In this document: positions 9,699 to 53,192 of the stretch, one piece after another
Layout of the letters: every line of letters begins with the position of its first letter
Numbering within the stretch: position 1 is the stretch's first letter
Assembly: GCF_002250505.1 (NCBI RefSeq)
Contig: NZ_NJGY01000002.1
Coordinates: forward strand, 99,878-163,877
Direction: 5' to 3'
DNA: 64,000 bases
Source: Janthinobacterium sp. PC23-8
GTDB taxonomy: Bacteria; Pseudomonadota; Gammaproteobacteria; Burkholderiales; Burkholderiaceae_D
Program-made: the position numbers and the translations under genes
The notes under the pieces: model-generated
What the model saw: the letters and a program-made list of their open reading frames with translations, nothing else
Database searches by the model: none
Told to the model about the DNA's origin: nothing

Positions 9699-10042
9699 CG
9701 GGCTGTGCGGTCGCTGCCGGCCGGCAGCTTGAACACGCTGACCAGTTTCATCAGTTGCACCGTCTGCTGCTCCAGCGATCCCGCCGCCGCTGCCGCTTCC
9801 TCGACCAGCGCGGCATTTTGCTGTGTCACGCCATCCATATCGGACATGGCTGCGTTGATCTGGCTGATGCCAGCGTCCTGCTCGCCCGCCGCGACGCTGA
9901 TTTTGCCCATCAGTTCGGTCATGCGGGCGATGCTGGTGACGACTTCGGCGATCGTGGCGCCGGCCTGGCCGACGATCTTGCCGCCGGCTTCGACCTGCGC
10001 CACCGACGCGCCGATCAGCACTTTGATCTCTTTGGCTGCGCT
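9632..10042 (-). pseudogene. 3' remnant of a methyl-accepting chemotaxis protein
   Basis: Reading leftward from about 10042, the minus strand encodes AAKEIKVLIG, GQAGATIAEVVTSI, MTELMGKISVAAGEQDAGI, NAAMSDMDGVTQQNAALVEE and AGSLEQQ. This is the distal signalling coiled coil and C-terminal tail of an MCP. Only about the last 135 residues remain. The sensor, HAMP and central hairpin are missing, and upstream of 10042 homology stops abruptly at a transposase fragment on the opposite strand. The open frame continues to 10213 but its N-terminal 57 residues are unrelated. It is therefore a truncated, non-functional gene. Its stop at 9632 falls inside the 3' end of the GH15 gene. Confidence 0.82.
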
Positions 10043-10251
10043 TGTTGACAAAGAAGAAGATGCCAGCCTCGCCGCCCACCTTGAACGAGATCGTCCGCCT
10101 GATCGCCCAAGTCGGCGGCTTCCTCTGCCGGAAAAGCGATGGAGAACCCGGCGTCCAAACCATCTGGTGCGGATTGAGTCAAGTTCACGCCGCAGCCGAA
10201 ACATTACGCGCACTGCGCGATGGGCTTGGCTGACTTATGTATAACGCGATA
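10043..10251 (+). mobile_element. IS4-family transposase 3' remnant with putative right end
   Basis: The plus strand encodes PPTLNEIVRLIAQVGGFL and KSDGEPGVQTIWCGL before a TGA at 10231-10233. These are the closing residues typical of Tn5/IS50-type IS4-family transposases. No catalytic DDE part is present. Just after the stop, ACTTATGTATAA (10233-10244) resembles the terminal repeat core of IS50-like elements (ACTTGTGTATAA), suggesting the right end is close to 10251. The left boundary abuts the chemotaxis receptor remnant. I infer an insertion followed by a deletion that removed most of the element and most of the receptor gene. Confidence 0.7.
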
Positions 10252-10409
10252 TGAGTTAAACCTACAAGAAGGTGAGCCGCTGGCACTTACATCGCGGGGT
10301 AAAGTCAACGTTTAGTGGTGTTTTTAGTACACGCCGAGCGTCAACACTATCCGTGCCGCTTGGGCCGCTCACGGGTAAAAAGGATTGCTGGAATATTTTT
10401 TGGAATAAT

Positions 10410-10439
10410 TTGTGCTCATTTTTGGTGTTGGGTGATAAT
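10410..10439 (+). promoter_or_regulatory. Candidate promoter of the AT-rich insert
   Basis: TTGTGC (10410-10415) and GATAAT (10434-10439) are 18 bases apart, 35 bases before the ATG at 10474, in a stretch much richer in A and T than the flanking genome. The next start site would fall between 10445 and 10450. No clear operator palindrome was found here. Sequence match only. Confidence 0.4.
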
Positions 10440-10473
10440 ATGACGTCATTGATCACTTGCGAAGGTACGAATC

Positions 10474-11088
10474 ATGCCCATTCTGGACCAAACTGCAGCC
10501 GACCGTGCGATAGAGCCATTCAAGCAAGACTTTATCCACATTTTTCAGACGGCTTGGAAGGATTGGAGAGAATCTGCGATCGCGCCTCAGATGCAGGACA
10601 AAAGAGTCCGGGCGAATAATGTCTGGAACCAGTTGTTGTCACATGCGAAGCGTCGCTTTGATGGAATGGAAGGCATTCGAGTCGAGACTAAGAAACCTTG
10701 GACTGGTGTACTAATAGATGGAAGCATTTTCGTACGTATGAAGCTGGCGAATCAAAAGCTGTTATCACGGAACTATCCAACTAAAAGTGCTCTTGCTTTT
10801 GTCGATCAGAATCAAGAGCTATTCGGTGAGGGTATTTCGCGTGCTGAACTGGTCTACTTGCTCGATGAATCTGAAACGGAAATCGAGCGAATTGTACTTT
10901 TGCAGCGTCACAAAAATAGTGTCGTGTGGATGATCGATATTCTTGGCGAGGCACCGATGAGTCAAAATGTTTTCCCGTTTGCAGAACCACCCATGCCGCA
11001 TACTGGCGGCGATATAGCAAAACGCATTATTAAACCTAAACACAAGATTGAAGATGAAAAGCACGAAGTTTCAAATGGTGCGCAATAG
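10474..11088 (+). CDS. Unrecognised protein, first gene of the XRE-ImmA/PIN-like module
   Basis: A 204-residue cytoplasmic protein with no signal peptide or membrane helix. Residues 1-75 look mainly helical (Trp/Lys/Gln-rich). A middle part with strand-like segments (GVLIDGSIFVRMKLANQK, RAELVYLLDE, IERIVLLQR, NSVVWMIDILGE) suggests a mixed alpha/beta fold. The last 30 residues are a Lys/Glu-rich tail. I do not recognise the family. GAAGG precedes the ATG at 10474. It overlaps the XRE-ImmA gene by 35 bases, which points to translational coupling and a shared function. Base composition and frequent TTA, ATA and AGA codons differ from the flanking genes, a sign of transfer. Confidence 0.7.
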   Translation: MPILDQTAADRAIEPFKQDFIHIFQTAWKDWRESAIAPQMQDKRVRANNVWNQLLSHAKRRFDGMEGIRVETKKPWTGVLIDGSIFVRMKLANQKLLSRNYPTKSALAFVDQNQELFGEGISRAELVYLLDESETEIERIVLLQRHKNSVVWMIDILGEAPMSQNVFPFAEPPMPHTGGDIAKRIIKPKHKIEDEKHEVSNGAQ

Positions 11089-12154
11089 CAATTTTTTCAG
11101 AAATGAATTGATTGGTTTACGACGTAGGATGTTGTCGTTGAGCCAGGCTGAGCTTTCAGCGCGTTCAGGTATTACTCAAGGAACGCTTTCGAAGGTAGAG
11201 CAAGGAATTAAGGAGGTAAATGACGACCTAGTTACGCGCCTTGCCGTGGCTTTGGAGTGTCCCGAAACGTTTTTCTATCAAGCAGAACGTGAGTATGGAC
11301 CACCAATGAGCGCACACGCCATGTTCAGAAAGAAGGCGACGATTGGTCAGAAAGTACTAGATAGGGTTATCGCTGAATTGAATGTAAGGATAGGTCATCT
11401 TCGTAAATTTTTGAGCGCGGTGGAGTTTAGTCCAGAATTGCCTTTTCCGACCTATGATGTTGAAGACTTTCATGGCGATATTGGGGCTATTGCCGACAGC
11501 GTCAGGCGCGCTTGGCTAGTTCCTCGCGGTCCCTTGCGTTCGCTTACTGAGTATGCTGAGCGTGCCGGTGTTCTAGTTATTCACTGTGACATGGAGGCGG
11601 CGAAGATTGACGGTGTAAGCTATCGAATTCCTGGATTGCCGCCAATTGTTTTCCTCAACCGAAATCAGCCAGCTGACCGGTTACGCTTTAGTCTTGCTCA
11701 CGAAATAGGTCACTTAGTAATGCATTCCTATCCAAATCCTAACATGGAGCAGGAAGCAAATCAGTTTGCATCGTCGCTGTTGATGCCGGCCTCTGACATC
11801 GGACCGGAGTTGCAAGGGCTGACCATCGAGAAGGCTGCATACATGAAACCATTGTGGAAGGTGTCAATGGCCGCTATGATTTATCGTGCTGCCGAGCTCA
11901 ATAAGATTGACCGTTACAAAGCCGAGTATCTATGGCGCCAGATGGCCACTCGCGGCTTTCGTATGCGTGAGCCACAAGCCGTAGATTTCCCGCCAGAGCA
12001 GACAAGTTTGATAGAAGCTCTTGTTGATAATTTAATGAAAGAGTTAGGGTACACACCACGGGAATTGTCAGAATTGCTTCATTTGCATTACGATGAACTG
12101 GCTCTTATGTACCGGATACAGGTCGCCCCAGTCGGCTTACGCGTCGTTAAATAA
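11054..12154 (+). CDS. XRE-type HTH protein fused to ImmA/IrrE zinc metallopeptidase
   Basis: A 366-residue two-domain protein. Residues 15-70 are a helix-turn-helix of the Cro/CI type (QAELSARSGITQGTLSKVEQG). The ImmA/IrrE domain follows, with the zinc site HEIGH at residues 216-220 and the third ligand region MEQEANQFASSLLMP, Glu234 being the likely ligand. Relatives cleave repressors (ImmA on ICEBs1, IrrE/PprI on DdrO) or act as antitoxins. Here the enzyme and DNA-binding parts are in one chain. Start choice is uncertain: ATG 11054 overlaps the previous gene by 35 bases, ATG 11075 by 14, and neither has a strong ribosome site. It lies between an unknown gene and a PIN-like nuclease candidate. 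Confidence 0.85.
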   Translation: MKSTKFQMVRNSNFFRNELIGLRRRMLSLSQAELSARSGITQGTLSKVEQGIKEVNDDLVTRLAVALECPETFFYQAEREYGPPMSAHAMFRKKATIGQKVLDRVIAELNVRIGHLRKFLSAVEFSPELPFPTYDVEDFHGDIGAIADSVRRAWLVPRGPLRSLTEYAERAGVLVIHCDMEAAKIDGVSYRIPGLPPIVFLNRNQPADRLRFSLAHEIGHLVMHSYPNPNMEQEANQFASSLLMPASDIGPELQGLTIEKAAYMKPLWKVSMAAMIYRAAELNKIDRYKAEYLWRQMATRGFRMREPQAVDFPPEQTSLIEALVDNLMKELGYTPRELSELLHLHYDELALMYRIQVAPVGLRVVK

Positions 12155-12276
12155 TCGAGAGTAATCGAGATTTTTGACTGCCTAAGGTATGACTGACACA
12201 ACACTATTGGTAAGGTTTTATTAAGTTTGGAAGAATTATAAATCGAAAATTGCCTGTGGAGCTTAATAAGAAACGA

Positions 12277-13383
12277 ATGCTCAATAAAAACGAAATTCTT
12301 AAGAGTATTGAGCGTCATCGCGCTCAACCTGCAATATCGTTGCAGCAATATTATTATTCACTTCAAAAAGAATTAGTTGCTGGAATTATAGGTAAGCGGC
12401 GATTATATTTGGATACAAAATACTGGGTAATTTTACGCGACGCGGCGATGGGTCGGCCAAAAAGTCCGATCCACACGGAAATTCTAGATGTGTTACGCGA
12501 CTTGGTGCGTACGGGTGCCGCCATATGCCCCTTGAGCGATACCGCTTATATCGAAACAATGCAACAAAATGACCCAACAACACGACGAGCAACTGCTGCT
12601 TTAATGGATGAACTGAGTAGTGGCGTTGCCATCGCAACTGAACAAACTCGAGCGCGCGGAGAGCTACTTAATTTTGTTGCTAGCCCTGAGTTAGATGTAA
12701 GCCATTTCAGCGAAAAAATTTGGGTGAAAACTAGTTTCGTGTTGGGCGAAAATTTCCCAGAAATTAAAGGCTTGGATATGAAGGCTAGCTTGTTAGCTCA
12801 GAAGTCTTTCGTTGATCTCATGTGGCATCAGACTGTGGTTGACTTCGCGGAACAGGAGGTTGACCGGAATTCATTGCCATTTCAATCCACTGCTGCCAAA
12901 ATCAATGAAAATATGGTTGCATTTGCTCATGAAATTAGAAGTTTCAAACAGGCAGCGGAAGCCGAGTTTGGAGGCTGTGTGAAAATTTTTGATCGGACCA
13001 TGACAAAAACCGCGTTGACTGAAAAAGGATTTGCGAGCGCTAAGGAGGAAGAAATTGACAAGTTTCAGGAGTGCATACAGCGAGGTTTGTACAACGTCAT
13101 GCGACTTCGTCCTAATGTCATGCTGAAGCGAGTACCTACCTTATTTATTTATGCAATGTGTCACGCTGCCACTCGATGGGATAAGGCGAGAAAAGTGAAT
13201 AGTCATTGGTTATTAGATATTCACCATGCTTGTGCCGGTCTTGCGTATCATGACGTGATGTTCACGGAGCATCCACTGCGTGTACTTCTTCAAAGTGGAA
13301 ATATGCAAATGGACAAAAAATTTTCCACTCCAGTTCTTTCAGAAGAAAAAGATATTCTTCACTATTTACGATCGATTAGATAA
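12277..13383 (+). CDS. Large PIN-like domain protein (candidate RNase)
   Basis: A 368-residue cytoplasmic protein. RRLYLDTKYWVIL (Asp46) resembles the first strand and acid of PIN-like nucleases. PLSDTAYIE (Asp88/Glu93) could give the second acid. HWLLDIHHACAGLAYHDVMFTEHPLRVLL (Asp314, Asp326) resembles the last two acids with the typical D-x-x-H-x-A spacing. About 200 mostly helical residues lie between the halves, more than in VapC-type toxins. The function as a metal-dependent RNase is inferred from these motifs only. No strong ribosome site: ATG 12277 was chosen, and TTG 12250 or GTG 12256 in frame are alternatives. It follows the XRE-ImmA gene by 122 bases, on the same strand and with the same AT-rich composition. 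Confidence 0.65.
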   Translation: MLNKNEILKSIERHRAQPAISLQQYYYSLQKELVAGIIGKRRLYLDTKYWVILRDAAMGRPKSPIHTEILDVLRDLVRTGAAICPLSDTAYIETMQQNDPTTRRATAALMDELSSGVAIATEQTRARGELLNFVASPELDVSHFSEKIWVKTSFVLGENFPEIKGLDMKASLLAQKSFVDLMWHQTVVDFAEQEVDRNSLPFQSTAAKINENMVAFAHEIRSFKQAAEAEFGGCVKIFDRTMTKTALTEKGFASAKEEEIDKFQECIQRGLYNVMRLRPNVMLKRVPTLFIYAMCHAATRWDKARKVNSHWLLDIHHACAGLAYHDVMFTEHPLRVLLQSGNMQMDKKFSTPVLSEEKDILHYLRSIR

Positions 13384-13489
13384 TGTTGGTCGAAATTTTT
13401 TTAAAATTTGTTTTATGAATGAGAAAAATTGACTTGAGAGAGCTAATGATGTCAGGCAAATTTTTGATATCCGCTTTATAGTAACGTAA

Positions 13490-14413
13490 TTAAGTATAGT
13501 TGCAATCTTCGCCACGGCCATACAACCTGCACTCGGCTGCCAGCGCCAGCAAATTCGCGTCGCGCTCGCGGCTGCTCAGCATCAGCAATGTGATTTGCTG
13601 GTGCGAGCCGTAGCGTTCGTCCAGCGAAATCAATTCGATGCGCGAGCTGAAGGCGCGCACCCTTCCCGGCAGCAGGCTGTAGCCGATGCCGCCGCTGACC
13701 AAATTAATCAGTGAAAAGATGTCGCCGACCCGCATCGCCGTGTCCGGCACGAAGCCGGCCAGCTCGAACGCATGGTTGAAGCTTTGCGAGGTGACAAAAC
13801 CCTCGCTGAGGGTGACGAATTTTTCGTCGCGCAGCGCCTGCAGGTCGACTGACGTTTGTCCCGCATAGGGTGAATTCAATGGCGCGGCAAGATACACATC
13901 ATCCTGGAACAGCGGCACCGATACCAGCCCCGCAGGGTGTTCCTGTTCCTGCACGCCGATAATGATGGCATCTAACCTTCCGTCGGCCAGGCTTTGCAGC
14001 AGTTCGCGGTTCGAGCCCAGCGTCAGGTCGATATCGAGGCCTGGCCGGCGCAGCTTTAACGCAATCACCAGTTGCGGGATGCAGTGCAGGGTCAATGAAT
14101 ACAGCGAGCCGATCTTTAGCCGCACCGGATTGATGCCCGACATTTCGCGCACCTTGCGCACGCCTTCCTCGCATTCGGCCAAGGCGCGGCGCGCCGATTC
14201 GGCAAAGGCATAGGCCGCATGCAGCGGGATCAGGTTGCGTCCCTCGCGCTTGAACAGCGGGCAGCGCAAACCGTCTTCCAGTGTATGCAGGGCGCGGTGC
14301 ACGCTGACGGTGCTCTGACCCAGGGCATCGGCTACCCGTGCCAGATTATTAAGCTCCATAAAGCTCAGGAACACTTCCAGTTTTTTCAGCGTGATTTCTT
14401 CATTGATGGCCAT
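13490..14413 (-). CDS. mdcR: LysR-family regulator of the malonate decarboxylase operon
   Basis: A 307-residue LysR-type regulator. The winged HTH is in residues 9-68 (LEVFLSFMELNNLARVADAL, then STVSVHRALHTLEDGL). The co-inducer domain starts near residue 95 and contains LADGRLDAIIIGV. It is transcribed divergently from mdcA across a 120-base gap holding a palindromic operator. This arrangement matches mdcR of Klebsiella and Pseudomonas, where the protein activates mdc genes in response to malonate. The assignment rests on family plus position. It marks the end of the AT-rich insert, since GC content returns to normal here. Confidence 0.85.
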   Translation of the reverse strand: MAINEEITLKKLEVFLSFMELNNLARVADALGQSTVSVHRALHTLEDGLRCPLFKREGRNLIPLHAAYAFAESARRALAECEEGVRKVREMSGINPVRLKIGSLYSLTLHCIPQLVIALKLRRPGLDIDLTLGSNRELLQSLADGRLDAIIIGVQEQEHPAGLVSVPLFQDDVYLAAPLNSPYAGQTSVDLQALRDEKFVTLSEGFVTSQSFNHAFELAGFVPDTAMRVGDIFSLINLVSGGIGYSLLPGRVRAFSSRIELISLDERYGSHQQITLLMLSSRERDANLLALAAECRLYGRGEDCNYT

Positions 14414-14434
14414 GGAGTACCGTGAATATCGTTA

Positions 14435-14459
14435 GTTCATTAACCTGAGGGTAATGAAC
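14435..14459. promoter_or_regulatory. Palindromic operator, candidate MdcR site
   Basis: GTTCATTA (14435-14442) and TAATGAAC (14452-14459) are perfect 8-base inverted arms around a 9-base centre, in the gap between mdcR and mdcA. The centre lies about 60 bases before the predicted mdcA transcription start, the usual place for the recognition site of a LysR activator. The arms contain the T-N11-A type symmetry of this family. Confidence 0.65.
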
Positions 14460-14470
14460 ATGGTAGCAGC

Positions 14471-14500
14471 TTGATTGTAGCGGCACCGCCTTTTCACTAT
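14471..14500 (+). promoter_or_regulatory. Candidate mdcA promoter
   Basis: TTGATT (14471-14476) and CACTAT (14495-14500) are 18 bases apart, placing the start of transcription near 14507, 27 bases before the mdcA ATG. The -10 box is weak, as expected for a promoter that needs an activator. Confidence 0.4.
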
Positions 14501-14533
14501 CTTGGAGACTCGATAGCTAAGAGGGGAGGCAAT

Positions 14534-16204
14534 ATGTCAACCGCCACACAGGCGCCACCGCAGCGAAAGCGGTGGGATACCCGCCGCACAGAGAAGCGCC
14601 GGCGCCTCGATGCCGTGCGCCATTTTGCGAACGGACCGGTGCTGCAACAGGGCGATATGGTGGCCGTGCTGGAAGCCTTGCTGGCGCCCGGTGACCGGGT
14701 CGTCCTGGAAGGCAATAACCAGAAGCAGGCGGACTTCCTGGCCCGCATGCTGGCCAGGGTCGATCCGGACAAGATCAACCATCTGCACCTGATCATGCCC
14801 AGCGTCAGCCTGCCCGAGCACCTGGACCTGTTCGAACGCGGCATCGCCAGGAAACTCGATTTCTCGTTTGCCGGCACGCAAAGCCTGCGCATCGCCCAGT
14901 TCCTGCAGGATGGCCTGCTGGAAGTGGGCGCCATCCACACCTATATCGAATTGTATGCGCGCCTGTTCGTCGACCTGACGCCCAACGTCGTGATGGTGGC
15001 CGGCTATATGGCCGACCGCCAGGGCAATCTGTACACGGGCCCCAGCACCGAGGATACGCCGACCCTGGTCGAAGCGGCGGCCTTCCGCGACGGCATCGTG
15101 ATCGCGCAAGTGAACCGGATCGTCGACGATGTCAGCGATTTGCCCAGGGTCGACGTGCCCGGCTCGTGGATCGACTTCGTGGTCGAAGCGGACAAGCCGT
15201 TTTTTATCGAACCCTTGTTTACCCGCGACCCGCGCGTGATCAAGCCGGTGCATGTGCTGATGGCGATGATGGCGATTCGCGGCGTGTATGAAAAACACCA
15301 GGTGCAGTCGCTCAATCACGGCATCGGCTTCAATACCGCCGCCATCGAACTGATACTGCCCACCTATGGCGAGAAGCTTGGCCTGAAGGGCAAGATCTGC
15401 CGCAACTGGGTGCTCAATCCGCATCCGACCCTGATTCCGGCCATCGAGACGGGCTGGGTCGAGAGCGTGCACTGCTTCGGCGCCGAACTGGGCATGGAAG
15501 GCTATGCGGCGGCGCGGCCCGACGTGTTCTTTACGGGCCGCGACGGTTCGATGCGCTCGAACCGCGCGCTATGCCAGCTGGCCGGCCAGTATGCGGTCGA
15601 CCTGTTTATCGGCGCCACCCTGCAGATGGACGGCGTGGGCAACTCGTCCACCGTCACCAACGGCCGGCTGGCCGGCTTTGGCGGCGCGCCCAATATGGGC
15701 CACGACCCGCACGGCCGGCGCCATGCTACCCCGGCCTGGCTGGACCTGATCGAGACCGACGATCCGCTCGCGCGCGGCAGGAAGCTGGTGGTGCAGATGG
15801 TCGAAACGTTCCAGGACGGCGGCCAGCCGACCATTGTCGAATCGCTCGATGCGGTGGCCGTGGGCAAGGCCAGCGGCATGCCGCTGGCGCCCGTGATGAT
15901 CTATGGCGACGACGTGACCCATGTGCTGACGGAAGAAGGCATCGCCTATCTGTACAAGGCACGCTCGCTCGACGAACGCAAGGCCATGCTGGCGGCCGTC
16001 GCCGGTGTGACGCCGATCGGCCTGCGCCACGACCCGAAAACCACGGCAAAACTGCGCAGCGACGGCCTGATCGCGCTGCCCGAGGATATCGGCGTGCAGC
16101 GCGGCGAGGCAAGCCGCTCGCTGCTGGCCGCAAAAAGCATCGCCGACCTGGTCGAATGGTCCGACGGCCTGTATCAACCGCCCGCCAAATTCAGGAGCTG
16201 GTAA
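14534..16204 (+). CDS. mdcA: Malonate decarboxylase alpha subunit (acetyl-ACP:malonate ACP transferase)
   Basis: A 556-residue cytoplasmic protein of the CoA-transferase-like MdcA family. It exchanges acetyl for malonyl on the acyl-carrier subunit, the first step of malonate breakdown. Recognisable stretches are VRHFANGPVLQQGDMVAVLEA near the N-terminus, VDLTPNVVMVAGYMADRQGN mid-protein, and GFGGAPNMGHDPHGRRH further on. GAGGGGAGG lies just before the ATG at 14534; an upstream in-frame start at 14471 has none and would overlap the promoter. Length matches the family. The stop overlaps mdcB by one base (TAATG). Confidence 0.95.
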   Translation: MSTATQAPPQRKRWDTRRTEKRRRLDAVRHFANGPVLQQGDMVAVLEALLAPGDRVVLEGNNQKQADFLARMLARVDPDKINHLHLIMPSVSLPEHLDLFERGIARKLDFSFAGTQSLRIAQFLQDGLLEVGAIHTYIELYARLFVDLTPNVVMVAGYMADRQGNLYTGPSTEDTPTLVEAAAFRDGIVIAQVNRIVDDVSDLPRVDVPGSWIDFVVEADKPFFIEPLFTRDPRVIKPVHVLMAMMAIRGVYEKHQVQSLNHGIGFNTAAIELILPTYGEKLGLKGKICRNWVLNPHPTLIPAIETGWVESVHCFGAELGMEGYAAARPDVFFTGRDGSMRSNRALCQLAGQYAVDLFIGATLQMDGVGNSSTVTNGRLAGFGGAPNMGHDPHGRRHATPAWLDLIETDDPLARGRKLVVQMVETFQDGGQPTIVESLDAVAVGKASGMPLAPVMIYGDDVTHVLTEEGIAYLYKARSLDERKAMLAAVAGVTPIGLRHDPKTTAKLRSDGLIALPEDIGVQRGEASRSLLAAKSIADLVEWSDGLYQPPAKFRSW

Positions 16205-42749: not shown

Positions 42750-44951
<2,202 letters not shown>

Positions 44952-44963
44952 GGCCAGCAATGT

Positions 44964-45000
44964 GTCGGATTACGCGGGGCTTGCGCCCCGCTGATCCGAC
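44964..45000. terminator. Strong inverted repeat between convergent genes (REP-like hairpin)
   Basis: Outer arms GTCGGAT (44964-44970) and ATCCGAC (44994-45000) enclose inner arms GCGGGGC (44974-44980) and GCCCCGC (44985-44991). It lies 12 bases after the oligopeptidase stop and touches the stop of the last gene of the minus-strand operon. Without a T tract it may be a bidirectional terminator or one copy of a dispersed REP-like element. Similar GTCGGAT/ATCCGAC hairpins occur widely in Betaproteobacteria. Confidence 0.6.
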
Positions 45001-45870
45001 CTACGCTGGCGCTATCCTGGCCAGCACACCTTTCCCGAATGCCGCCTGATACGGCAAATCCTTGCGCTGCGCATAGCCGATATAGCAGTCGCACTTGAAG
45101 CGCGGGCAGCTGCGCTCCTGCAGGATATCGGCCAGCTCACTGTCGTACAGATTGCCCAGCCGCTCAGGCACAAAATGGCAGCGCGCCAGTTCGCCGTCGC
45201 CGTCGACCGACAGCGCCGTCTCGCCGGCGAAGCAGCCCTTGCCGCGCGACGGCGCCGGGCGCCGGCTTTGCGCGAACCATGGGTCGATGTCATCGAGCCA
45301 GGCCAGGTCTCCGGCAGCGTAGTAGCCTGGGCCGCGCCGGTCATAGGCGTTCAGCCACAGGTAGACGTGCTTCGGCAACGCTGCGCGCAGCGCTGCAATG
45401 GCGCCGTAGTGTTCATGCAGGGCCACCACGCCGACCGAATAACGCACGCCCATTGTGTCCAGGCGCGCGCAGCGTTCGAGAAAGCGCCTGATCGTGGTCT
45501 GGCCCGGGTGGAAGGTGCACCACAGGCCGATCTTTTCCAGGCCATCCATGCCATCGAGCCAGTTTAATGGGCCGGACAGATTGGTCTGCAGCGCCACCTG
45601 TTGCACATGGCGCAGGGCCGCCAGGTTCTGCATGGCGCTGCGGTAGTGGCGCCGCACCAGCGCTTCGCCCCACGGTGTAAACAGCACGCCGATGGGGCGC
45701 GCCTGTTGCGCCACCCAGGCCGTAAAACGCGCCACCTCGCGCGCGTCGCGGGCCAGCGCGGCGCGGCTGTCCTGCTTCTTGGCAAACGGGCAGTAGCCGC
45801 AGGCGTAGTTGCAGCTGGCCAGCGTGCCCCGGTAGAGCAGCGACAACATGGTTTGCCGCGCCGTCAGCAC
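45001..45870 (-). CDS. STM4011-family radical SAM protein
   Basis: A 289-residue radical SAM enzyme. The cluster motif is Cys20-x3-Cys24-x2-Cys27 (ASCNYACGYCPF). A C-terminal Cys set (GKGCFAGE, ARCHFVP, SCPRFKCDCYIGYA) resembles the auxiliary-cluster SPASM/twitch region of peptide-modifying enzymes. It is the last gene of a five-gene operon and overlaps the previous gene by seven bases. Start is GTG 45870; an ATG at 45849 is possible. The reaction is unknown. SPASM-like enzymes usually act on peptides or proteins, which guides the hypothesis for the cluster. Confidence 0.85.
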   Translation of the reverse strand: MLTARQTMLSLLYRGTLASCNYACGYCPFAKKQDSRAALARDAREVARFTAWVAQQARPIGVLFTPWGEALVRRHYRSAMQNLAALRHVQQVALQTNLSGPLNWLDGMDGLEKIGLWCTFHPGQTTIRRFLERCARLDTMGVRYSVGVVALHEHYGAIAALRAALPKHVYLWLNAYDRRGPGYYAAGDLAWLDDIDPWFAQSRRPAPSRGKGCFAGETALSVDGDGELARCHFVPERLGNLYDSELADILQERSCPRFKCDCYIGYAQRKDLPYQAAFGKGVLARIAPA

Positions 45871-47240
45871 GCCTGGCCGCTGTCGGCCATCAGCGCGCGC
45901 ACCGTGCTTGACGCCAGCCAGGGGCCGATGGTGTCGGCGTAGGAATATCCCCGGTCATTGAGGCGCAGCAGTGGGCCTTGCTGCGTGACCAGTTCCAGTG
46001 CAAACAGCTCGGCCAGTTGCGGCAGGTCCGCCAGGCAGTCGCTGCCAAAGCGGGCCGTGTAGGCGTCAAGGTCGAGACCCGGATCGGTCAGCAGCGACTG
46101 GATCACGTAGCGGCGGCGCTGGTCTTCCTCTCCCAGCAGATAGCCGTGTTCGGCCTGCGCGAAGCGCGCCTCGTCCAGCGCCAGGTAGTTGTCGATAATG
46201 CCGATGGTCTGCGTGCGCGCCACCGCGTACTGGCTCGAATAATGCAGGCGCGAGGTGTAGGAACGCGCGCCCGCGCCCAGGCCCACCATGCCGTCGTTCT
46301 GGCAGCAGTAGGACGGGCCGGCGTCGCCTGGTGCATGCGGTGCGCGGAACATGCGCATCGATACCTGCACATAGCCCCGGGCGCGCAGGTGCTCGCGCGC
46401 GGCCGCATACAGCATCAAACGGCTGTCGCCGTCGCGCGCCAGCATGATGGGGTTGAGGCTGCCGGCGCCCTTGCGGTGCGCGATCTTGCCCAGGCCCGTC
46501 TGCTCGCGCACGTAGAGCGGATACAGATAGATCTCTTCGGGCTGGAACGCCAGCGCGCTGTCGATCGAGGCCAGCAGGCTGGCCACCGTCTGGCCGGCGA
46601 TGCCGTAGATCAGGTCCAGATTTAAGGTCGGAAAACCCGCTTCGCGTATCAGGGCAATCGCCTGGCGCACGGTGGCGTTCTGCTGCGGGCGCGCCAGCGC
46701 GCGCATCTCGCCGGCGGCAAAGCTCTGGATGCCCAGGCTGACCCGGTCGATGCCGTGCGCGCGGCATACCGCCAGGCGTTGCGCCGTAATGGTTTCGGGC
46801 GAAGCCTCGATGCCGGCGGGTGTGGCCTGCAGGTCGATGCCAAGGATGTCGCGCGCGCCGCACAGCAGGGTGTCCAGTTGCGCCGCCGACAGATAGGTCG
46901 GCGTGCCGCCGCCGAGCGCGAAGCGGGCAAAGCGGCGCTCGCCCAGCGCGCCGTCCATGGCGCGCATCTGCACCAGCACCTGCTGCACATAGCGCTCGAC
47001 CATCTCGGCGCTGGGCCGCGCCATGGCGAACAGATTGCAAAAGCCGCAGCGCATTTCGCAGAACGGGATATGGATATAGGCAAACAGGGCCGAGCGGTCC
47101 TGCTGCGCCCAGATCGGCGCCAGCGGCGTCGCTGGCAAGCTGCGGTAGGCCGCCTTGTGCGGATAGGAATAGGAATACGCCTGGTAGGGCGTATGGCGCA
47201 TGCGCTGCGCCAGCGTGCCCGGCTGTTCGGATGGATTCAC
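45864..47240 (-). CDS. STM4012-family radical SAM protein, HemN-like
   Basis: A 458-residue enzyme of the HemN/coproporphyrinogen dehydrogenase-like group. The cluster motif is Cys61-x3-Cys65-x2-Cys68 (HIPFCEMRCGFCNL), followed by ALGGGTPTYLSAAQL and SLGIQSFAAGEMRAL, all HemN-type landmarks. It is not HemN itself: context is a conserved cluster without haem genes, and the C-terminal winged-helix region diverges. HemN-like proteins include haem chaperones, methyltransferases and cyclopropanases. Four-base overlap with the upstream hydrolase gene. Confidence 0.85.
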   Translation of the reverse strand: MNPSEQPGTLAQRMRHTPYQAYSYSYPHKAAYRSLPATPLAPIWAQQDRSALFAYIHIPFCEMRCGFCNLFAMARPSAEMVERYVQQVLVQMRAMDGALGERRFARFALGGGTPTYLSAAQLDTLLCGARDILGIDLQATPAGIEASPETITAQRLAVCRAHGIDRVSLGIQSFAAGEMRALARPQQNATVRQAIALIREAGFPTLNLDLIYGIAGQTVASLLASIDSALAFQPEEIYLYPLYVREQTGLGKIAHRKGAGSLNPIMLARDGDSRLMLYAAAREHLRARGYVQVSMRMFRAPHAPGDAGPSYCCQNDGMVGLGAGARSYTSRLHYSSQYAVARTQTIGIIDNYLALDEARFAQAEHGYLLGEEDQRRRYVIQSLLTDPGLDLDAYTARFGSDCLADLPQLAELFALELVTQQGPLLRLNDRGYSYADTIGPWLASSTVRALMADSGQAC

Positions 47241-48085
47241 GGTGCGGCTCCCTGGGAATGCGGTGGTGGGGATGGAATGAAAAAATGCGCGTAGGGTACG
47301 TTCCAGACGCGGTCGTGCGCCACGCGGTGGCCCCGGTAACCGTCTTCGCCATAGGCGCTGCCGTGGTCGGAGCAGACGATGGCAAAGGTGGGCGCGCGCG
47401 CGGCGCAGGCGGCAAACAGCGGCGCCAGGGCGCCGTCCACATAGCGCAGCGCGGCTGCATGGCTGTCGAGATTATCAAAACGGCAGCCCGGCAGGTACGC
47501 GCGGTTCGGCGCATGCAGGGCCGCCACATTGATGAACAAAAAGGTGCGCCGGGCGTTTTCGGCCAGCAGCCGGGTCGCCAGCGCTACCTGTTTTTCGGTC
47601 GAATGGCGGCCGGCCACGCCCATGGCCGCGCTCCAGTGGCTTTCCTGGAACAGCGCCGGCAGCACACGGCCCAAGGCAGTCTGTTGATTGAAAAAACCCA
47701 CGCCGCCGATGCAGATGGTGCGGTAGCCGCGCGCGGCAAGCGCTTCGGGAATGCTCGCTTCTGCAAAGGCAAAGGCGCGCGGTGAGGTCGTCTCGCTGCC
47801 GGCAAAGGCGCTGGCGAACAGGCGCGGGTGGCGCCCGGGCGCCGCCGGGGTGGGCAAGAAGCCGGCAAAGAAGGCCTGGTGCGCGGCATAGGTAAAGGTG
47901 GCCGGCGAGTGGCGCTGGTCCCAGCCCGTGGCCGGCAAAAAGCGCCCCAGCACCGGCAGCTCACCCGCCTCGAACAGCGCCTGCGCCACGTCATAGCGCA
48001 AGGTGTCGAGCGTGACGAAGACGATATCGTGGCTGCCCACGATGGCGTTCATGTCGGGGATGGCGAATTTACTGGACTCAGGCAT
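47237..48085 (-). CDS. STM4013/SEN3800-family hydrolase (alkaline phosphatase superfamily)
   Basis: A 282-residue metal-dependent hydrolase. VFVTLDTLRYDVA supplies the first metal Asp, and VCSDHGSAYGEDGYRGHRVAHD supplies the later Asp-His pair and His ligands. In SPATFTYAAHQAFF a Thr or Ser stands at the nucleophile position instead of the Cys/Ser of formylglycine sulfatases, so phosphodiesterase or phosphatase chemistry is more likely than sulfate removal. No signal peptide, so it acts in the cytosol like its operon partners. It overlaps the STM4014-like gene by eight bases. Confidence 0.82.
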   Translation of the reverse strand: MPESSKFAIPDMNAIVGSHDIVFVTLDTLRYDVAQALFEAGELPVLGRFLPATGWDQRHSPATFTYAAHQAFFAGFLPTPAAPGRHPRLFASAFAGSETTSPRAFAFAEASIPEALAARGYRTICIGGVGFFNQQTALGRVLPALFQESHWSAAMGVAGRHSTEKQVALATRLLAENARRTFLFINVAALHAPNRAYLPGCRFDNLDSHAAALRYVDGALAPLFAACAARAPTFAIVCSDHGSAYGEDGYRGHRVAHDRVWNVPYAHFFIPSPPPHSQGAAP

Positions 48086-49166
48086 GGCGGTTCAAGCTGT
48101 GCAGCTGCGCCGCATAGGTATCGCGCTCCTGCCACAACAGGCCAGGCAGCAGGTCGCCAAAGGCGTTCGCTTCGAGCACATGGGCCTGGCCGCGCCGCAC
48201 AACCAGGTCGTAGCCGGCCACGCCGCTGGCAGGAAAGGCGCGCGCCGCCTGCAGCGCGGTGGCCTCCAGCACCGCCAGGTCGGCCTGGTTCAGCAAGGTG
48301 GCGACGTCACCGCGCTGGTTATCCAGGTGCAGATTGGTCATCATTTGCCTGCCCAGGCGCGCTACCCGGTGCGCCGGCTGGCCGTCAATGGCCACCACGC
48401 GCAGGTCGTAATGGCTGTCGCCGCAGCGCGGCTTGGCCAGCCAGGCCTCGGCGTACAGTTCCTGCGCGGCCAGCGCGTCGACCAGGGCGGCGATATCGGC
48501 GTCGCTTTCATGGCGCGCGATGCGCTTGACGTTGAACAGACGGGTTTCTCCGTGAATGTGCACGATGCTGGCCGAAGTCGTTGCCTGCTGGCGCCCGGTT
48601 TTATTCCTGCGGTAGGCCACCACACCCGAGCCCGACGAGCCATAGCGCGGTTTCAGATAGACCCGGTCCAGGCCATGCTGGCGCAGCAGCGACTGCAGAT
48701 GGTCGTAGCCATGCACCGTCCCGAGCAGGGCGGGCGTGGGTACGCCATGTTCGGCCAGGTGGCGCTGGCAAGCCAGTTTGTCGGTCATCAGGGTAATTTC
48801 GGCCGGGGCATTGACGACATGGGCGCGGGGCCGGGCGGCGAGCTGGATGGACAGACGTTCCATTGCCTTTGCAAAACCGGCAAACCAGGCATCCATCGCC
48901 AGCAGTTCGCCATGTTCGGGGGCACGCACGGGCGCGCGGTCCAGCAACTGGCAGCCAAGGCGCAGCAGTTGCAGATGCGCCAGCGGGTCGTCGCCCGGCG
49001 GCTCGATCTTGAACCGGCAGGGCTGCCCGAACGCGGCGTCAAGCAAGGCCGGATCGGCCAGCCAGTCGCGCCATTCGAGCAGGCGCGCTGGCGGCAGGTC
49101 AAGCTGCGCGCGCGCCGCCTGCAGCAGGCGCACACGCTTGCTGCCTTTGGTGGCCAGCAACAGCAT
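48078..49166 (-). CDS. STM4014-family protein, ATP-grasp-like
   Basis: A 362-residue protein. The C-terminal two-thirds resemble an ATP-grasp ligase: LMTDKLACQRHLAEHGVPTP starts the fold, VYLKPRYGSSGSGVV holds the nucleotide-binding Lys and Gly loop, and VAGYDLVVRRGQAHVLEANAFGD ends with the metal-binding Glu/Asn. Such enzymes join an activated carboxylate to an amine or thiol, often on peptides (RimK, RiPP ligases). The N-terminal 110 residues are unassigned. It begins six bases after the STM4015-like stop. Confidence 0.8.
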   Translation of the reverse strand: MLLLATKGSKRVRLLQAARAQLDLPPARLLEWRDWLADPALLDAAFGQPCRFKIEPPGDDPLAHLQLLRLGCQLLDRAPVRAPEHGELLAMDAWFAGFAKAMERLSIQLAARPRAHVVNAPAEITLMTDKLACQRHLAEHGVPTPALLGTVHGYDHLQSLLRQHGLDRVYLKPRYGSSGSGVVAYRRNKTGRQQATTSASIVHIHGETRLFNVKRIARHESDADIAALVDALAAQELYAEAWLAKPRCGDSHYDLRVVAIDGQPAHRVARLGRQMMTNLHLDNQRGDVATLLNQADLAVLEATALQAARAFPASGVAGYDLVVRRGQAHVLEANAFGDLLPGLLWQERDTYAAQLHSLNRHA

Positions 49167-49172
49167 CAGGAG

Positions 49173-50099
49173 CTATTCGCCGACCGCGACATAGCGATAG
49201 ACTTCGCCATCGTCCTCGTCGTCTTCCTGGGGATCGTCCAGCACCACTTCGAACGGCAATGCCTTGAGTTTTTCCTGGTTCGCTGCCGAGACATAGTGAT
49301 GCGACAGGTCCAGGCGCGTCAAGTTGCCCAGCTGCGTGCCCTGCAGCAGCGCTTCGGCGCCGACGTCGCCCAGGGTGCCCAGCGACAGGTCCAGCGTGGT
49401 GATGGTGGCCAGCAGCGCTTCGTTGGCCAGCCAGGCGGCCAGCTCGTCGGCGATCTGCGCGTCGCGCAGACCCAGGTAGCGCAAGCTCGGCGTGGCCAGC
49501 TGCGCCAGCACCTTCCGGTATAGCGCGACGTCGCCGGAAAAACCGTAGTCGTCGGTGCCCAGCCACAGTTCCAGGTGTTCCAGCTTCGGCATGCTCGACT
49601 CGCAGAGGGCCTGGGCGATTTTCTGGTCCAGACCACCGGACTCGATGGTGAACTTGCGCAGGTTCTGGTGCGCGAACGCCTCGAGGGTCAATTCATTGCC
49701 GCCACGGATGCGCAGCTCTTCCAGTTGCGGGAAGGCGTCCAGCAGCGGCTTGTAGCTGCCTTGCACGATCCACGAGATTTCGCATTCCTCGTACGTCATG
49801 TCGCCGATAAACAGGGCGCGCAGCTTCGGCAACTGCGGCGCATGGCTGACCAGCGCGGCGATCACCGCGTCGGCGCCCGCTTCGTACGGCTCGCCCCACA
49901 TGCCGATGATCAGCGCCTCCAGGGTGGACTTGTCGGCCTTTTCCAGGAAGCCGGCGATCAGCTCCGGCATCTTGCGCTCGTCATCGTATTCCAGCGACAA
50001 ACGATACACCACGTCCGGTGCAGGATCGAAGGCGGTCTCCGGGTCGTACTGCACGACTTTTTTATGGTGGAAGGTGGTGGTGCTGTCGGAAATGGTCAT
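49173..50099 (-). CDS. STM4015-family protein with leucine-rich-repeat-like domain
   Basis: A 308-residue cytoplasmic protein and first gene of the operon. Residues 85-280 contain repeats such as QLEELRIRGGNELTLEAF, KLEHLELWLG, SLRYLGLRDAQIADELAAWL, TLDLSLGTLGDVGAEALLQG and LTRLDLSHHYVS, typical of bacterial LRR proteins. The end is an acidic linker (DDPQEDDEDD) and a short terminal peptide VYRYVAVGE. The repeats suggest a binding scaffold. The isolated tail could be a modification site for the cluster enzymes, which is my inference. GGAG precedes ATG 50099 by eight bases. Confidence 0.85.
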   Translation of the reverse strand: MTISDSTTTFHHKKVVQYDPETAFDPAPDVVYRLSLEYDDERKMPELIAGFLEKADKSTLEALIIGMWGEPYEAGADAVIAALVSHAPQLPKLRALFIGDMTYEECEISWIVQGSYKPLLDAFPQLEELRIRGGNELTLEAFAHQNLRKFTIESGGLDQKIAQALCESSMPKLEHLELWLGTDDYGFSGDVALYRKVLAQLATPSLRYLGLRDAQIADELAAWLANEALLATITTLDLSLGTLGDVGAEALLQGTQLGNLTRLDLSHHYVSAANQEKLKALPFEVVLDDPQEDDEDDGEVYRYVAVGE

Positions 50100-50190
50100 T
50101 GCTGAGGCTCCATGAAAGGCATTGGAAATCTTGTCTGTTCCAAAATCTTAGCATGGGTGTAACAGCGTCAGTCGCACTGCTGAAAAGCAA

Positions 50191-50766
50191 TTATCTGTGG
50201 ATGACGACCAGCAAAGCCTTGCCTTCGGTCTTGCCCAGATTGCGTATCGTATGCGGCAAGTCGGCCGGATAGCGCGCCGTGCCGCCATTCTTGACTTTTT
50301 TCTTCGCCGTCCCCACTTCCAGTTCCAGGTTGCCGTGCAGCACGGTCAGATGCTCGGTGGTGCCGGGGTCGTGCGGCTGGGAGGCCAGCTCGCCGCCCGG
50401 CGCCAGGGTCACCTCATACCATTCGTATTTGCCGGCCAGTTCCATCGGCCCCAGGATGCGCAGCACATAGCCGGCATGGTCGCCGGGCAGGGTGGGGGTC
50501 TCGTGGGCGTCGGTGACGCGGATGGTCTCCACGGCTTTTTCCGCGCTCGACAGCAATTCGCCGATCTGCACGCCCAGGGCGTTGGCCAGGCGCCAGGTAA
50601 TGGCGATGGTCGGGTTGGCTTTTTCGCGTTCGATCTGCGACAGCATGGACTTCGACACGCCCGCGATGCGCGACAAATCCTCCAGTGTCAGGCCGCGCGC
50701 CAGGCGCAAGCGTTGCAAGGTGGCGCCGACTTCGGGCGGGGAGTTGGTCGAAACACTGGTTTTCAT
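50191..50766 (-). CDS. XRE-family regulator with cupin domain
   Basis: A 191-residue regulator. The HTH is at residues 15-70 (LRLARGLTLEDLSRIAGVSK, then SMLSQIEREKANPT). A cupin sensor domain follows (SQPHDPGTTEHLTVLHGNLE). Such proteins usually control neighbouring amino-acid or amine catabolism. It is divergent from kbl-tdh, with a large inverted repeat in the 212-base gap. The start could be ATG 50766 or 50790; neither has a strong ribosome site. Confidence 0.82.
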   Translation of the reverse strand: MKTSVSTNSPPEVGATLQRLRLARGLTLEDLSRIAGVSKSMLSQIEREKANPTIAITWRLANALGVQIGELLSSAEKAVETIRVTDAHETPTLPGDHAGYVLRILGPMELAGKYEWYEVTLAPGGELASQPHDPGTTEHLTVLHGNLELEVGTAKKKVKNGGTARYPADLPHTIRNLGKTEGKALLVVIHR

Positions 50767-50803
50767 CGGCAGTTGGCTTGCATAGTTCAACAGGTTTGGG
50801 TAA

Positions 50804-50841
50804 TATCCACTATATTGAATTTTAGTTCGACATAGTGGATT
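50804..50841. promoter_or_regulatory. Inverted-repeat operator between XRE-cupin gene and kbl
   Basis: Left arm TATCCACTATATTGAA (50804-50819) and right arm TTCGACATAGTGGATT (50826-50841) are inverted copies matching at 13 of 16 positions, with perfect ATCCACTAT/ATAGTGGAT cores. They are separated by six bases. The site lies 38 bases upstream of the XRE-cupin start and 137 before kbl, suiting control of both directions by the divergent regulator. Confidence 0.65.
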
Positions 50842-50978
50842 TCAGGGCTGATTCAGGAAATGCGTATCAGCTGTACACTGAACCCTGAACAGCGCCCCAC
50901 GGTACAGCATGCGGCGCACAGCGGTCAAGCGGCGGCTTTTCCCTATGGCGGCAACCCAACACGGACACAAGGATCATC

Positions 50979-52205
50979 ATGAGCGAGCAAGCGAAGAACA
51001 CCTTTTTCAGCGGTCTGCAACAGAACCTCGATCAACTGCGCCAGCAGGGCTTGTACAAGAGCGAGCGCGTGATCGCCTCGCGCCAGGGCGCTGAAGTGGT
51101 GTGCGACGATGGCCGCACCCTGATCAATATGTGCGCCAATAACTACCTGGGCCTGTCGGGCGACCTGCAGACCCAGCAGGCGTCGATTGCCGCCACCGAA
51201 CAATACGGCTATGGCCTGTCGTCGGTGCGTTTCATTTGTGGCACGCAAACCGTGCACAAGGAACTGGAGCAGGCCATTTCCAGCTTCCTCGGCACCGAAG
51301 ACACAATACTGTACGCGGCCGCCTTTGACGCCAACGGCGGCGTGTTCGAGCCGCTGTTCGATGAAAACGACGCCATTATCTCCGACGCGCTGAATCACGC
51401 TTCGATCATCGACGGCATCCGCCTGTGCAAGGCCGGCCGCTACCGCTACCTGCATAACGACATGGCCGACCTCGAAGTGCAGCTGCAGGCCGCCGTTGCC
51501 GCCGGCAAGCGCCACAAGGTGATCGTTACCGACGGCGTGTTCTCGATGGACGGCACCATCGCGCAGCTCGACAAGATCTGCGACCTGGCCGACCAATACG
51601 GCGCGCTGGTGATGATCGACGAATGCCATGCCTCCGGCTTCATGGGCGCGACGGGCCGCGGCACGCATGAACACCACCATGTGATGGGCCGCATCGACAT
51701 CATCACGGGTACGTTGGGCAAGGCCCTGGGCGGCGCCATGGGCGGCTTTACGTCGGCCCGAAAGGAAGTGATCGACACCCTGCGCCAGAAGTCGCGTCCG
51801 TATCTGTTCTCGAACACCCTGGCGCCCTCGATCGCCGGCGCCTCGCTCTCAGTGCTGCAGCGCCTGGCCAAATCGACCGAACTGCGCGACCGCCTGCACG
51901 AAAATACGGCGTTTTTCCGCAGCGAGATCGAGCGCATCGGCTTTACCATCAAGCCGGGCACGCATCCGGTGGTTCCCGTGATGCTGTTCGACGCGCCGGT
52001 GGCGCAACGATTTGCCGCCCGCCTGTATGAACTGGGCGTGCTGGTGACGGGCTTTTTCTATCCGGTGGTGCCGATGGGCCAGGCGCGCGTGCGCGTGCAG
52101 CTGTCGGCCGCCCATACCCGCGAACAGCTGGTCGCCGTGCTGGCCGCTTTCGAGCAGGCCGGCAAGGAACTGGGCCTGATCCAGGCCACCACGAGCAATC
52201 AATAA
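50979..52205 (+). CDS. kbl: Glycine C-acetyltransferase (2-amino-3-ketobutyrate CoA ligase)
   Basis: A 408-residue PLP enzyme of the alpha-oxoamine synthase family. [24 protein letters not shown]-like [31 protein letters not shown], and [15 protein letters not shown] (PLP Lys) are the expected landmarks. It splits 2-amino-3-oxobutyrate with CoA to glycine and acetyl-CoA. ACAAGGATC lies close to the ATG. Located 21 bases before tdh, so the two complete threonine breakdown. Confidence 0.94.
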
Positions 52206-52226
52206 CAACAATACCGGGAAAACAGC

Positions 52227-53192
52227 ATGGAACGCATTTTAGTCATCGGCGCAAACGGCCAGATCGGCAGTGAACTGGTCGGCGCCCTGGCGCGGCAGCA
52301 CGGCGCGGACAACGTCATCGCCAGCGATATCGGCGCCAGCAACGTCTACGACGCCAAGCGCTATGCGCAGCTGAACGTGCTCGACAAGGACGGCCTGGCA
52401 AGCATCATCGCCAGTGAAAACATCACCCAGGTGTACCAGCTGGCGGCGATGCTGTCGGCCACCGGCGAAGCGGCGCCATTGAAGGCCTGGAGCCTGAACA
52501 TGGATGGCCTGCTCAATATCCTGGAACTGGCGCGCGAGCGCGGCGCGGCGGGCAAGCCATTGCGCATCTTCTGGCCGTCGTCGATCGCCGCCTTCGGCCC
52601 GAACACGCCGCAGGTCAATACGCCGCAGATGACGGTGATGGACCCGACTTCGATGTACGGCATCAGCAAGCTGGCCGGCGAGCGCCTGTGCGAGTACTAC
52701 CATGCCAAATATGGCGTCGACGTGCGCAGCATCCGCTACCCCGGCATCATCAGCTACAAGTCGCCTCCGGGCGGCGGCACCACCGATTACGCGATCGCCA
52801 TCTTCCATGCGGCCCTGCGCGGCGAGCGCTATGACTGCTTCCTGAATGCGGCCACCACCTTGCCGATGATTTACATGCCCGACGCCATCCGCGCCACCAT
52901 CGAACTGATGGACGCGCCGGCGGCAAGCATCAAGATCCGCTCTTCGTACAACGTGGCCGGCGTGTCGTTCAACCCCGGGCAGCTGGCCGCCGCCATCAGC
53001 GCCAAAGTGCCAGGTTTTGCCATCAGCTACGCGCCCGACAGCCGCCAGGCGATTGCCGACAGCTGGCCGCAAAGCCTGGACGACAGCACGGCGCATGCCG
53101 ACTGGGGCTGGAAGGCGAAGATCGGCGTCGATGAGATGGTGGCCGACATGCTGGCCCATGTCGATGTCGGCCAGCCGGCCAAGGCGGCCTGA
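52227..53192 (+). CDS. tdh: L-threonine 3-dehydrogenase, epimerase-type (SDR)
   Basis: A 321-residue extended short-chain dehydrogenase. VIGANGQIGSELV is the NAD-binding Gly motif, and SMYGISKLAGERLCEYY holds the catalytic Tyr-x3-Lys. It is the short epimerase-like form of threonine dehydrogenase, not the zinc enzyme of E. coli. It oxidises threonine to 2-amino-3-oxobutyrate, the substrate of the preceding gene product. CCGGGAAAACAGC is a weak ribosome site. Confidence 0.9.
   Translation: MERILVIGANGQIGSELVGALARQHGADNVIASDIGASNVYDAKRYAQLNVLDKDGLASIIASENITQVYQLAAMLSATGEAAPLKAWSLNMDGLLNILELARERGAAGKPLRIFWPSSIAAFGPNTPQVNTPQMTVMDPTSMYGISKLAGERLCEYYHAKYGVDVRSIRYPGIISYKSPPGGGTTDYAIAIFHAALRGERYDCFLNAATTLPMIYMPDAIRATIELMDAPAASIKIRSSYNVAGVSFNPGQLAAAISAKVPGFAISYAPDSRQAIADSWPQSLDDSTAHADWGWKAKIGVDEMVADMLAHVDVGQPAKAA

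Follow-up and report, generated by a model that had tools for sequence, protein, structure and literature searches.

The STM4015–STM4011 operon

We analysed a stretch of 64,000 nucleotides from Janthinobacterium sp. PC23-8 (NCBI RefSeq assembly GCF_002250505.1, 6.39 Mb; contig NZ_NJGY01000002.1, positions 99,878 to 163,877; the window), which contains five genes of the STM4015 to STM4011 families. These encode a leucine-rich repeat (LRR) protein, an ATP-grasp protein, a hydrolase and two radical S-adenosylmethionine (SAM) proteins. An earlier note on this DNA, made from the sequence, had described five minus-strand genes with gaps or overlaps of at most eight bases, and our analysis agrees. 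The genes lie in the usual order with spacings, from STM4015 to STM4011, of +6, −8, −4 and −7 bases, and all five proteins exceed the cut-offs of their own NCBIfam families. Third-position GC is 0.80–0.85 across the five frames. The five-gene operon is real, and its features in the window are:

49173–50099, minus strand: STM4015 family LRR protein, the proposed carrier or substrate; 308 residues; NF038076, 340.7 bits (cut-off 275)
49176–49238, minus strand: acidic C-terminal tail of STM4015, residues 288–308, the last being Glu308 (codon 49176–49178); coordinates derived manually
48078–49166, minus strand: STM4014 family ATP-grasp protein, the proposed ligase acting on the STM4015 terminal Glu; 362 residues; NF038074, 331.9 bits (cut-off 175)
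47237–48085, minus strand: STM4013/SEN3800 family hydrolase of the alkaline-phosphatase superfamily, likely Thr nucleophile T65; 282 residues; NF038075, 394.4 bits (cut-off 250)
45864–47240, minus strand: STM4012 family HemN-like radical SAM protein; 458 residues; NF006067, 566.4 bits (cut-off 380)
45001–45870, minus strand: STM4011 family radical SAM protein with a SPASM-like C-terminal part; 289 residues; NF038073, 361.3 bits (cut-off 200)

A promoter scan found no sigma-70-like promoter in positions 44900–50300. The possibility of an overlooked short precursor gene, raised in the earlier note, was not borne out in the window. The largest internal gap is 6 bases and 91 bases lie upstream, leaving no room for a separate short precursor in this operon, and we rejected that candidate here.

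All five NCBIfam families have a member in the window, but they carry names and no function. The earlier note had stated that they are named after STM loci and have no assigned pathway. In line with this, our literature search, with most subscription papers outside its reach, found no function for the STM4015 to STM4011 families and no statement of a carrier role for them. The only two papers found mention the family genes in tables, one covering genes examined for positive selection (PMC2784778) and the other sigma-54 binding sites (PMC3844500).

Conservation of the operon

An STM4011 alignment was scanned against one genome per species, about 85,000 species in all, and gave at least 592 pattern matches, at least 558 of them relatives. 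Plasmid records gave 13 matches, 12 of which were retrieved, from Deinococcus, Methylobacterium, Streptomyces, Embleya, Nonomuraea, Paenibacillus, Bacteroides and Salmonella. We compared 93 loci, comprising the window, these 12 plasmid loci and the best 80 genome loci of the at least 558 relatives (loci are referred to by L numbers). The best 80 span Beta-, Gamma- and Alphaproteobacteria, Planctomycetota, Actinomycetota, Deinococcales, Akkermansia relatives and others, and the nearest STM4011 relatives among the matches listed are from Janthinobacterium. The pathway is common and occurs in several phyla. Searches closer to the window gave mostly weak background, with STM4015 above its cut-off in 2 of 369 genomes of the same class and STM4011 in 1 of 398 genomes of the same phylum, the window's own genome included in each count. 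The operon gave no DNA-level match in E. coli genomes.

Across the 93 loci, STM4011 is present in 93, STM4012 in 92, STM4013 in 87, STM4015 in 85 and STM4014 in 83, and all five genes are above score limits in 81. A single strand and the order STM4015 (one or more copies)-4014-4013-4012-4011 are found in 76 of these 81 complete loci; the five exceptions have mixed strands (L047, L082, L095), a rearranged planctomycete locus (L079) or split frames (L091). The five-gene order is conserved far beyond chance. In the split-frame locus, from Prescottella defluvii, STM4015, STM4013 and STM4012 each lie in two frames, as expected of a decaying operon or of sequencing errors. STM4015 is missing from eight loci. 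Four of these genomes were searched whole, and the gene was found elsewhere in three (L078, L084, L102); the whole-genome search of L083, a metagenome-assembled genome (MAG), gave no STM4015 match. Two or more STM4015 matches occur in 26 of the 93 loci, the split frame of L091 counted in.

STM4015 ends in an invariant glutamate

All 114 complete STM4015 relatives counted (at least 190 bits; 110 distinct 30-residue tails) have glutamate as their last residue, its codon immediately preceding the stop codon. The enzymes of the same loci served as a control and have Glu in last place in 1 of 84 (STM4014), 4 of 86 (STM4013), 1 of 90 (STM4012) and 1 of 94 (STM4011) cases. The residues before the terminal Glu show preferences only, with Arg at −7 in 89, Tyr at −6 in 86, Val at −3 in 96 and Ser, Gly or Ala at −2 in 103 of the 110 tails. 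Ten STM4015 alignment columns are identical in 99% of rows or more, the terminal Glu among them, and this residue also belongs to the 12 invariant columns of a 51-sequence STM4015 alignment. The window protein ends in YRYVAVGE, with Glu308 in last place. Since Glu is found in every complete relative, is rare at the ends of the four enzymes and follows a variable tail, we propose it as a loading site, and consider this assignment fairly well supported by the sequence comparisons.

The count excludes matches below 190 bits or cut by an end. The excluded rows include L026 and L035 (the same protein, ending in Glu), two pieces from L091 (157 bits, Glu; 131 bits from a split frame, Ser), a 100-bit remnant in L094 (Glu), L079 (Glu), the cut background LRR proteins of L010, L027 and L028, and L075, where four of five LRR proteins end in Glu and one in Arg. 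An earlier tally of 115 of 115 had counted L005, a duplicate of L034.

The tail is acidic, with a mean net charge of −6.3 over the last 25 residues and a negative value in 110 of the 114 proteins. Mean net charge over the proteins is −29.6 for STM4015, +3.1 for STM4014, +1.6 for STM4011, −5.0 for STM4013 and −7.7 for STM4012. The window STM4015 has LRR Pfam matches and two Cys.

An invariant terminal Glu would also be expected if STM4015 were a protein tag joined through this residue to other proteins, for which Pup provides the precedent. A tag with a body of about 34 kDa is unlikely, and such a role would leave two radical SAM enzymes and a hydrolase unexplained; we regard it as very improbable.

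Comparison with the PDB identified entry 2ra8, an uncharacterised protein of Bacteroides fragilis (Q64V53), as a full-length STM4015 match (E 2.8e-73). The alignment ends at a Glu, residue 354 of 362, and the eight residues that follow presumably stem from a purification tag. 2ra8 is an STM4015 relative like the window protein, but one that, judging by its name, was expressed without its pathway. Our literature search found no paper naming it.

A diverged LRR class with the same terminus

At the planctomycete loci L075 and L079, the STM4015 model matches LRR proteins of 441–540 residues weakly (46–63 bits). L075, from a planctomycete MAG, has four tandem LRR proteins between STM4011 and STM4014 (9723–15432), with tails unlike that of STM4015, each ending in Glu. 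The diverged LRR protein of L079 also ends in Glu. We built a model from the bodies of these five Glu-ending proteins, the last 30 residues removed, and ran it on the open reading frames (ORFs) of these two loci and of 40 fetched stretches. The top eight of 56 matches (at least 247 bits) all end in Glu and comprise the five seeds and three non-seeds (L173, L203, L204). The ninth match falls to 142 bits, and 9 of the remaining 48 matches end in Glu, including STM4015 proteins themselves (L200, L208). Among 41 fetched LRR proteins that score weakly against STM4015, drawn from stretches that are themselves a selection from a longer list, Glu is the last residue of L173, L203 and L204 and of 4 of the 38 others. 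The terminal Glu is kept on a strongly diverged LRR class.

Two of these LRR proteins, L203:3912–5186 and L204:1318–2499, are encoded without an operon gene nearby in the fetched stretches. They end in YLHEGDFE and HLWYGDME, resembling the L075 and L079 tails.

STM4014 distantly resembles ligases that use a terminal glutamate

We compared an STM4014 profile of 46 sequences to the PDB. The top five matches are two LysX entries followed by three S6 glutamate ligase or S6 modification protein entries (25–27 bits, E 2.5e-5 to 7.7e-5), with biotin carboxylase next at 24 bits. The RimK-family model is matched by 29 of the 46 members and the LysX model by 15, and conserved STM4014 residues include K172, E332 and N334. 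These profile matches indicate that STM4014 is distantly akin to LysX and RimK.

As described in an excerpt of PMC10433800, LysX couples alpha-aminoadipate through its amino group to LysW, at the gamma-carboxyl of the C-terminal residue Glu54, and the GSWGR motif of such ligases recognises the EDWGE tail. According to an excerpt of PMC9303977, electrostatic interaction with the acidic carrier is important in such systems. Because its PDB relatives LysX and RimK extend LysW or S6 by an amino acid at the terminal Glu, STM4014 would be suited to such a terminus. The most economical reading makes the terminal Glu of STM4015 the site of STM4014 action, which we think rather probable.

The terminal Glu could instead be purely structural or a recognition element, capping the LRR or bound by a partner and never modified, with the enzymes acting on a free small molecule. 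A predicted ordered tail would suit such a role, as would the presence near the operon of a small accessory protein and a DUF6745 protein whose last residues are likewise conserved. The Glu is, however, kept on an LRR body of different size and lies beside a ligase with relatives that act on a terminal Glu. We therefore consider a solely structural role improbable.

The radical SAM enzymes and the hydrolase

In STM4011, the three radical SAM cysteines and five more cysteines are kept in the counted relatives, and the protein has a SPASM Pfam match. The sole PDB match of STM4011 is SkfB, the maturase of the sporulation killing factor, which aligns with the C-terminal part (22 bits, E 0.00067). 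The STM4012 profile matches HemN (1olt) over most of its length and also the methyltransferase NocN (9p2u). The window STM4012 scores 136 bits against a HemN cut-off of 324.95, and we rejected its assignment as the oxygen-independent coproporphyrinogen III oxidase HemN.

These relationships would fit maturation of the STM4015 tail itself, in the manner of a ribosomally synthesized and post-translationally modified peptide (RiPP). The radical SAM enzymes would cross-link, decarboxylate or methylate tail residues and the ATP-grasp protein would make an intramolecular bond. STM4011 matches a sactipeptide maturase, SkfB; HemN chemistry acts on propionate side chains, of which Glu carries one; and Arg, Tyr and Val are preferred at −7, −6 and −3. 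However, Glu is the only invariant residue of the tail, so that a fixed cross-link partner is missing, and the diverged LRR class has a different tail. Tail maturation of this type is an improbable alternative.

STM4013 has a Sulfatase Pfam match and a Thr at the nucleophile place in 86 of 86 members. This residue, T65 in the window, aligns with the Thr of NPP phosphodiesterases, which we take to be their nucleophile. By its sequence, STM4013 looks like an alkaline-phosphatase-superfamily enzyme. Since sulfatase maturases carry SPASM, the Sulfatase match of STM4013 and the SPASM match of STM4011 could be read as a sulfatase with its formylglycine-making radical SAM maturase. The formylglycine sulfatase motif is C/S-x-P-S-R, whereas the residue in this place is Thr, and neither Cys nor Ser, in all 86 STM4013 proteins counted. 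We rejected this pairing, which is close to refuted.

On a Bacteroides finegoldii plasmid (L040:7965–9530), STM4011 is fused to a HAD hydrolase and STM4013 is represented by only a 70-bit piece; STM4012 was not found at this locus. A HAD gene follows STM4011 on a Salmonella plasmid. This fusion and the HAD gene suggest a phosphate on the substrate. The features of STM4011, STM4012 and STM4013 appear to suit work on a tethered group but leave its chemistry unfixed.

A proposed carrier pathway

We propose that STM4015 acts as a carrier, or scaffold, whose leucine-rich body would be recognised by the pathway enzymes and whose acidic tail ends in the invariant Glu. STM4014 would use ATP to activate a carboxylate of this Glu and would bond it to a small molecule or amino acid via the amino group of the latter. 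The radical SAM proteins STM4011 (SPASM-like) and STM4012 (HemN-like) would then alter the attached group, STM4013 would cleave a phosphoester on it, and a peptidase encoded elsewhere would free the product. It is likely, and new here, that the LRR protein STM4015 is itself the substrate. The sequences themselves show the operon, the invariant terminal Glu, the distant LysX/RimK kinship and conserved catalytic residues. The ligation and the choice of carboxylate, the substrate, the sequence of reactions, the release and the later chemistry are predictions, and we give the full pathway of carrier and release about an even chance. The earlier note had read the five genes as the toolkit of a RiPP-like or cofactor maturation. 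A ligase, two radical SAM enzymes and a hydrolase do fit work on a protein or peptide, but the nearest parallel is carrier loading at a terminal Glu, as in LysW/LysX and S6/RimK, and not a classical RiPP.

Several observations weigh against the proposed pathway. The kinship of STM4014 is remote, since the window protein is far below the cut-offs for RimK (33.1 against 143.4 bits) and LysX (22.0 against 275.6 bits), retrieves neither from the PDB as a single sequence, and has ATPgrasp_ST as its best Pfam match. Attraction to an acidic carrier is not a general feature of the enzymes, as STM4013 and STM4012 have a negative mean net charge. AlphaFold predicts STM4015 with a mean confidence score (pLDDT) of 95.9, and of 90 over the last eight residues, indicating an ordered tail and no free arm; we rejected a free disordered tail on this prediction. 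The fifth LRR protein of L075, beyond STM4014, ends in Arg. The accessory proteins near the operon also have a conserved last residue, Asp in 39 of 39 for a protein of about 100 residues and Thr in 35 of 38 for the DUF6745 protein. Finally, NCBIfam and Pfam identified no peptidase among the five genes.

The lack of a peptidase and the predicted order of the tail are also what would be expected if modified STM4015 were the end product, with a cofactor-like group on the terminal Glu or tail used by the LRR protein and nothing released. STM4015 is large and folded, and 1 of 51 members has a WGR domain. However, conservation of the terminus alone, with size and body highly variable, is more in keeping with a carrier than with an enzyme that has a cofactor site. 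An end product of this kind is possible but rather unlikely.

Comparison with known carrier systems

We compared the proposed carrier pathway to three known systems. The amino-group carriers LysW and ArgW, with LysX and ArgX, have in common with it an acidic tail, an invariant terminal Glu and an ATP-grasp enzyme, to which STM4014 is distantly related through LysX/RimK. STM4015 differs from LysW in ending without the EDWGE motif and in having an LRR protein of about 300 residues in place of a body with zinc-binding cysteines, a LysW feature noted in an excerpt of PMC10433800. The tailoring enzymes also differ, being radical SAM proteins here and a kinase, reductase and aminotransferase in the LysW/ArgW pathway. 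Thus, the STM4015 system appears to work like an amino-group carrier but stands outside that family, as the EDWGE motif and the zinc body were both looked for and are absent.

RimK and ribosomal protein S6 share with our prediction an ATP-grasp enzyme that acts on the C-terminus of a folded protein, and RimK is among the best PDB matches. STM4014 is nevertheless far below the RimK cut-off, the substrate protein is different, and radical SAM partners are found here. The pearlins, built by a PEARL ligase on a carrier peptide, share the idea of building on a carrier C-terminus, which we propose for STM4015, and in one case include radical SAM tailoring (excerpt of PMC9303977). Pearlins use short carrier peptides and a tRNA-dependent PEARL ligase, whereas the operon encodes a folded LRR protein and an ATP-grasp protein; NCBIfam and Pfam identified no PEARL ligase among its five genes.

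Accessory proteins and neighbouring genes

Two accessory proteins are encoded repeatedly close to the operon, the DUF6745 protein in 39 of the 93 loci and the protein of about 100 residues in 40 (for example L036, L037, L038, L044, L045 and L046). The pair was identified via annotated plasmid records. The small protein gave no Pfam match in the three tested. A Methylobacterium DUF6745 query gave no match in the window's genome, a weak result since the search had no positive control. Blind clustering of neighbouring ORFs gained no further partners, being swamped by shadow ORFs of the five genes.

From their translations, we take the genes flanking the operon in the window (42750–44951 and 50191–53192) to resemble a prolyl oligopeptidase oriented towards the operon, a helix-turn-helix/cupin regulator and a threonine-degradation pair. 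Judged in this way, nothing links them to the pathway.

Implications

The system may represent a third ribosomal-carrier strategy beside the amino-group carrier proteins and the pearlins. LRR proteins of variable size, sometimes in tandem, would be loaded at an invariant terminal Glu by a LysX/RimK-like ligase, and two radical SAM enzymes and a hydrolase would make a small molecule or cofactor. We put this forward tentatively, with somewhat less confidence than the pathway itself. The single named residue turns an open question into one mass-spectrometry experiment. If the proposal is true, a large folded LRR protein joins the short list of ribosomal carriers for small-molecule building, and would offer a handle for fishing out the product.

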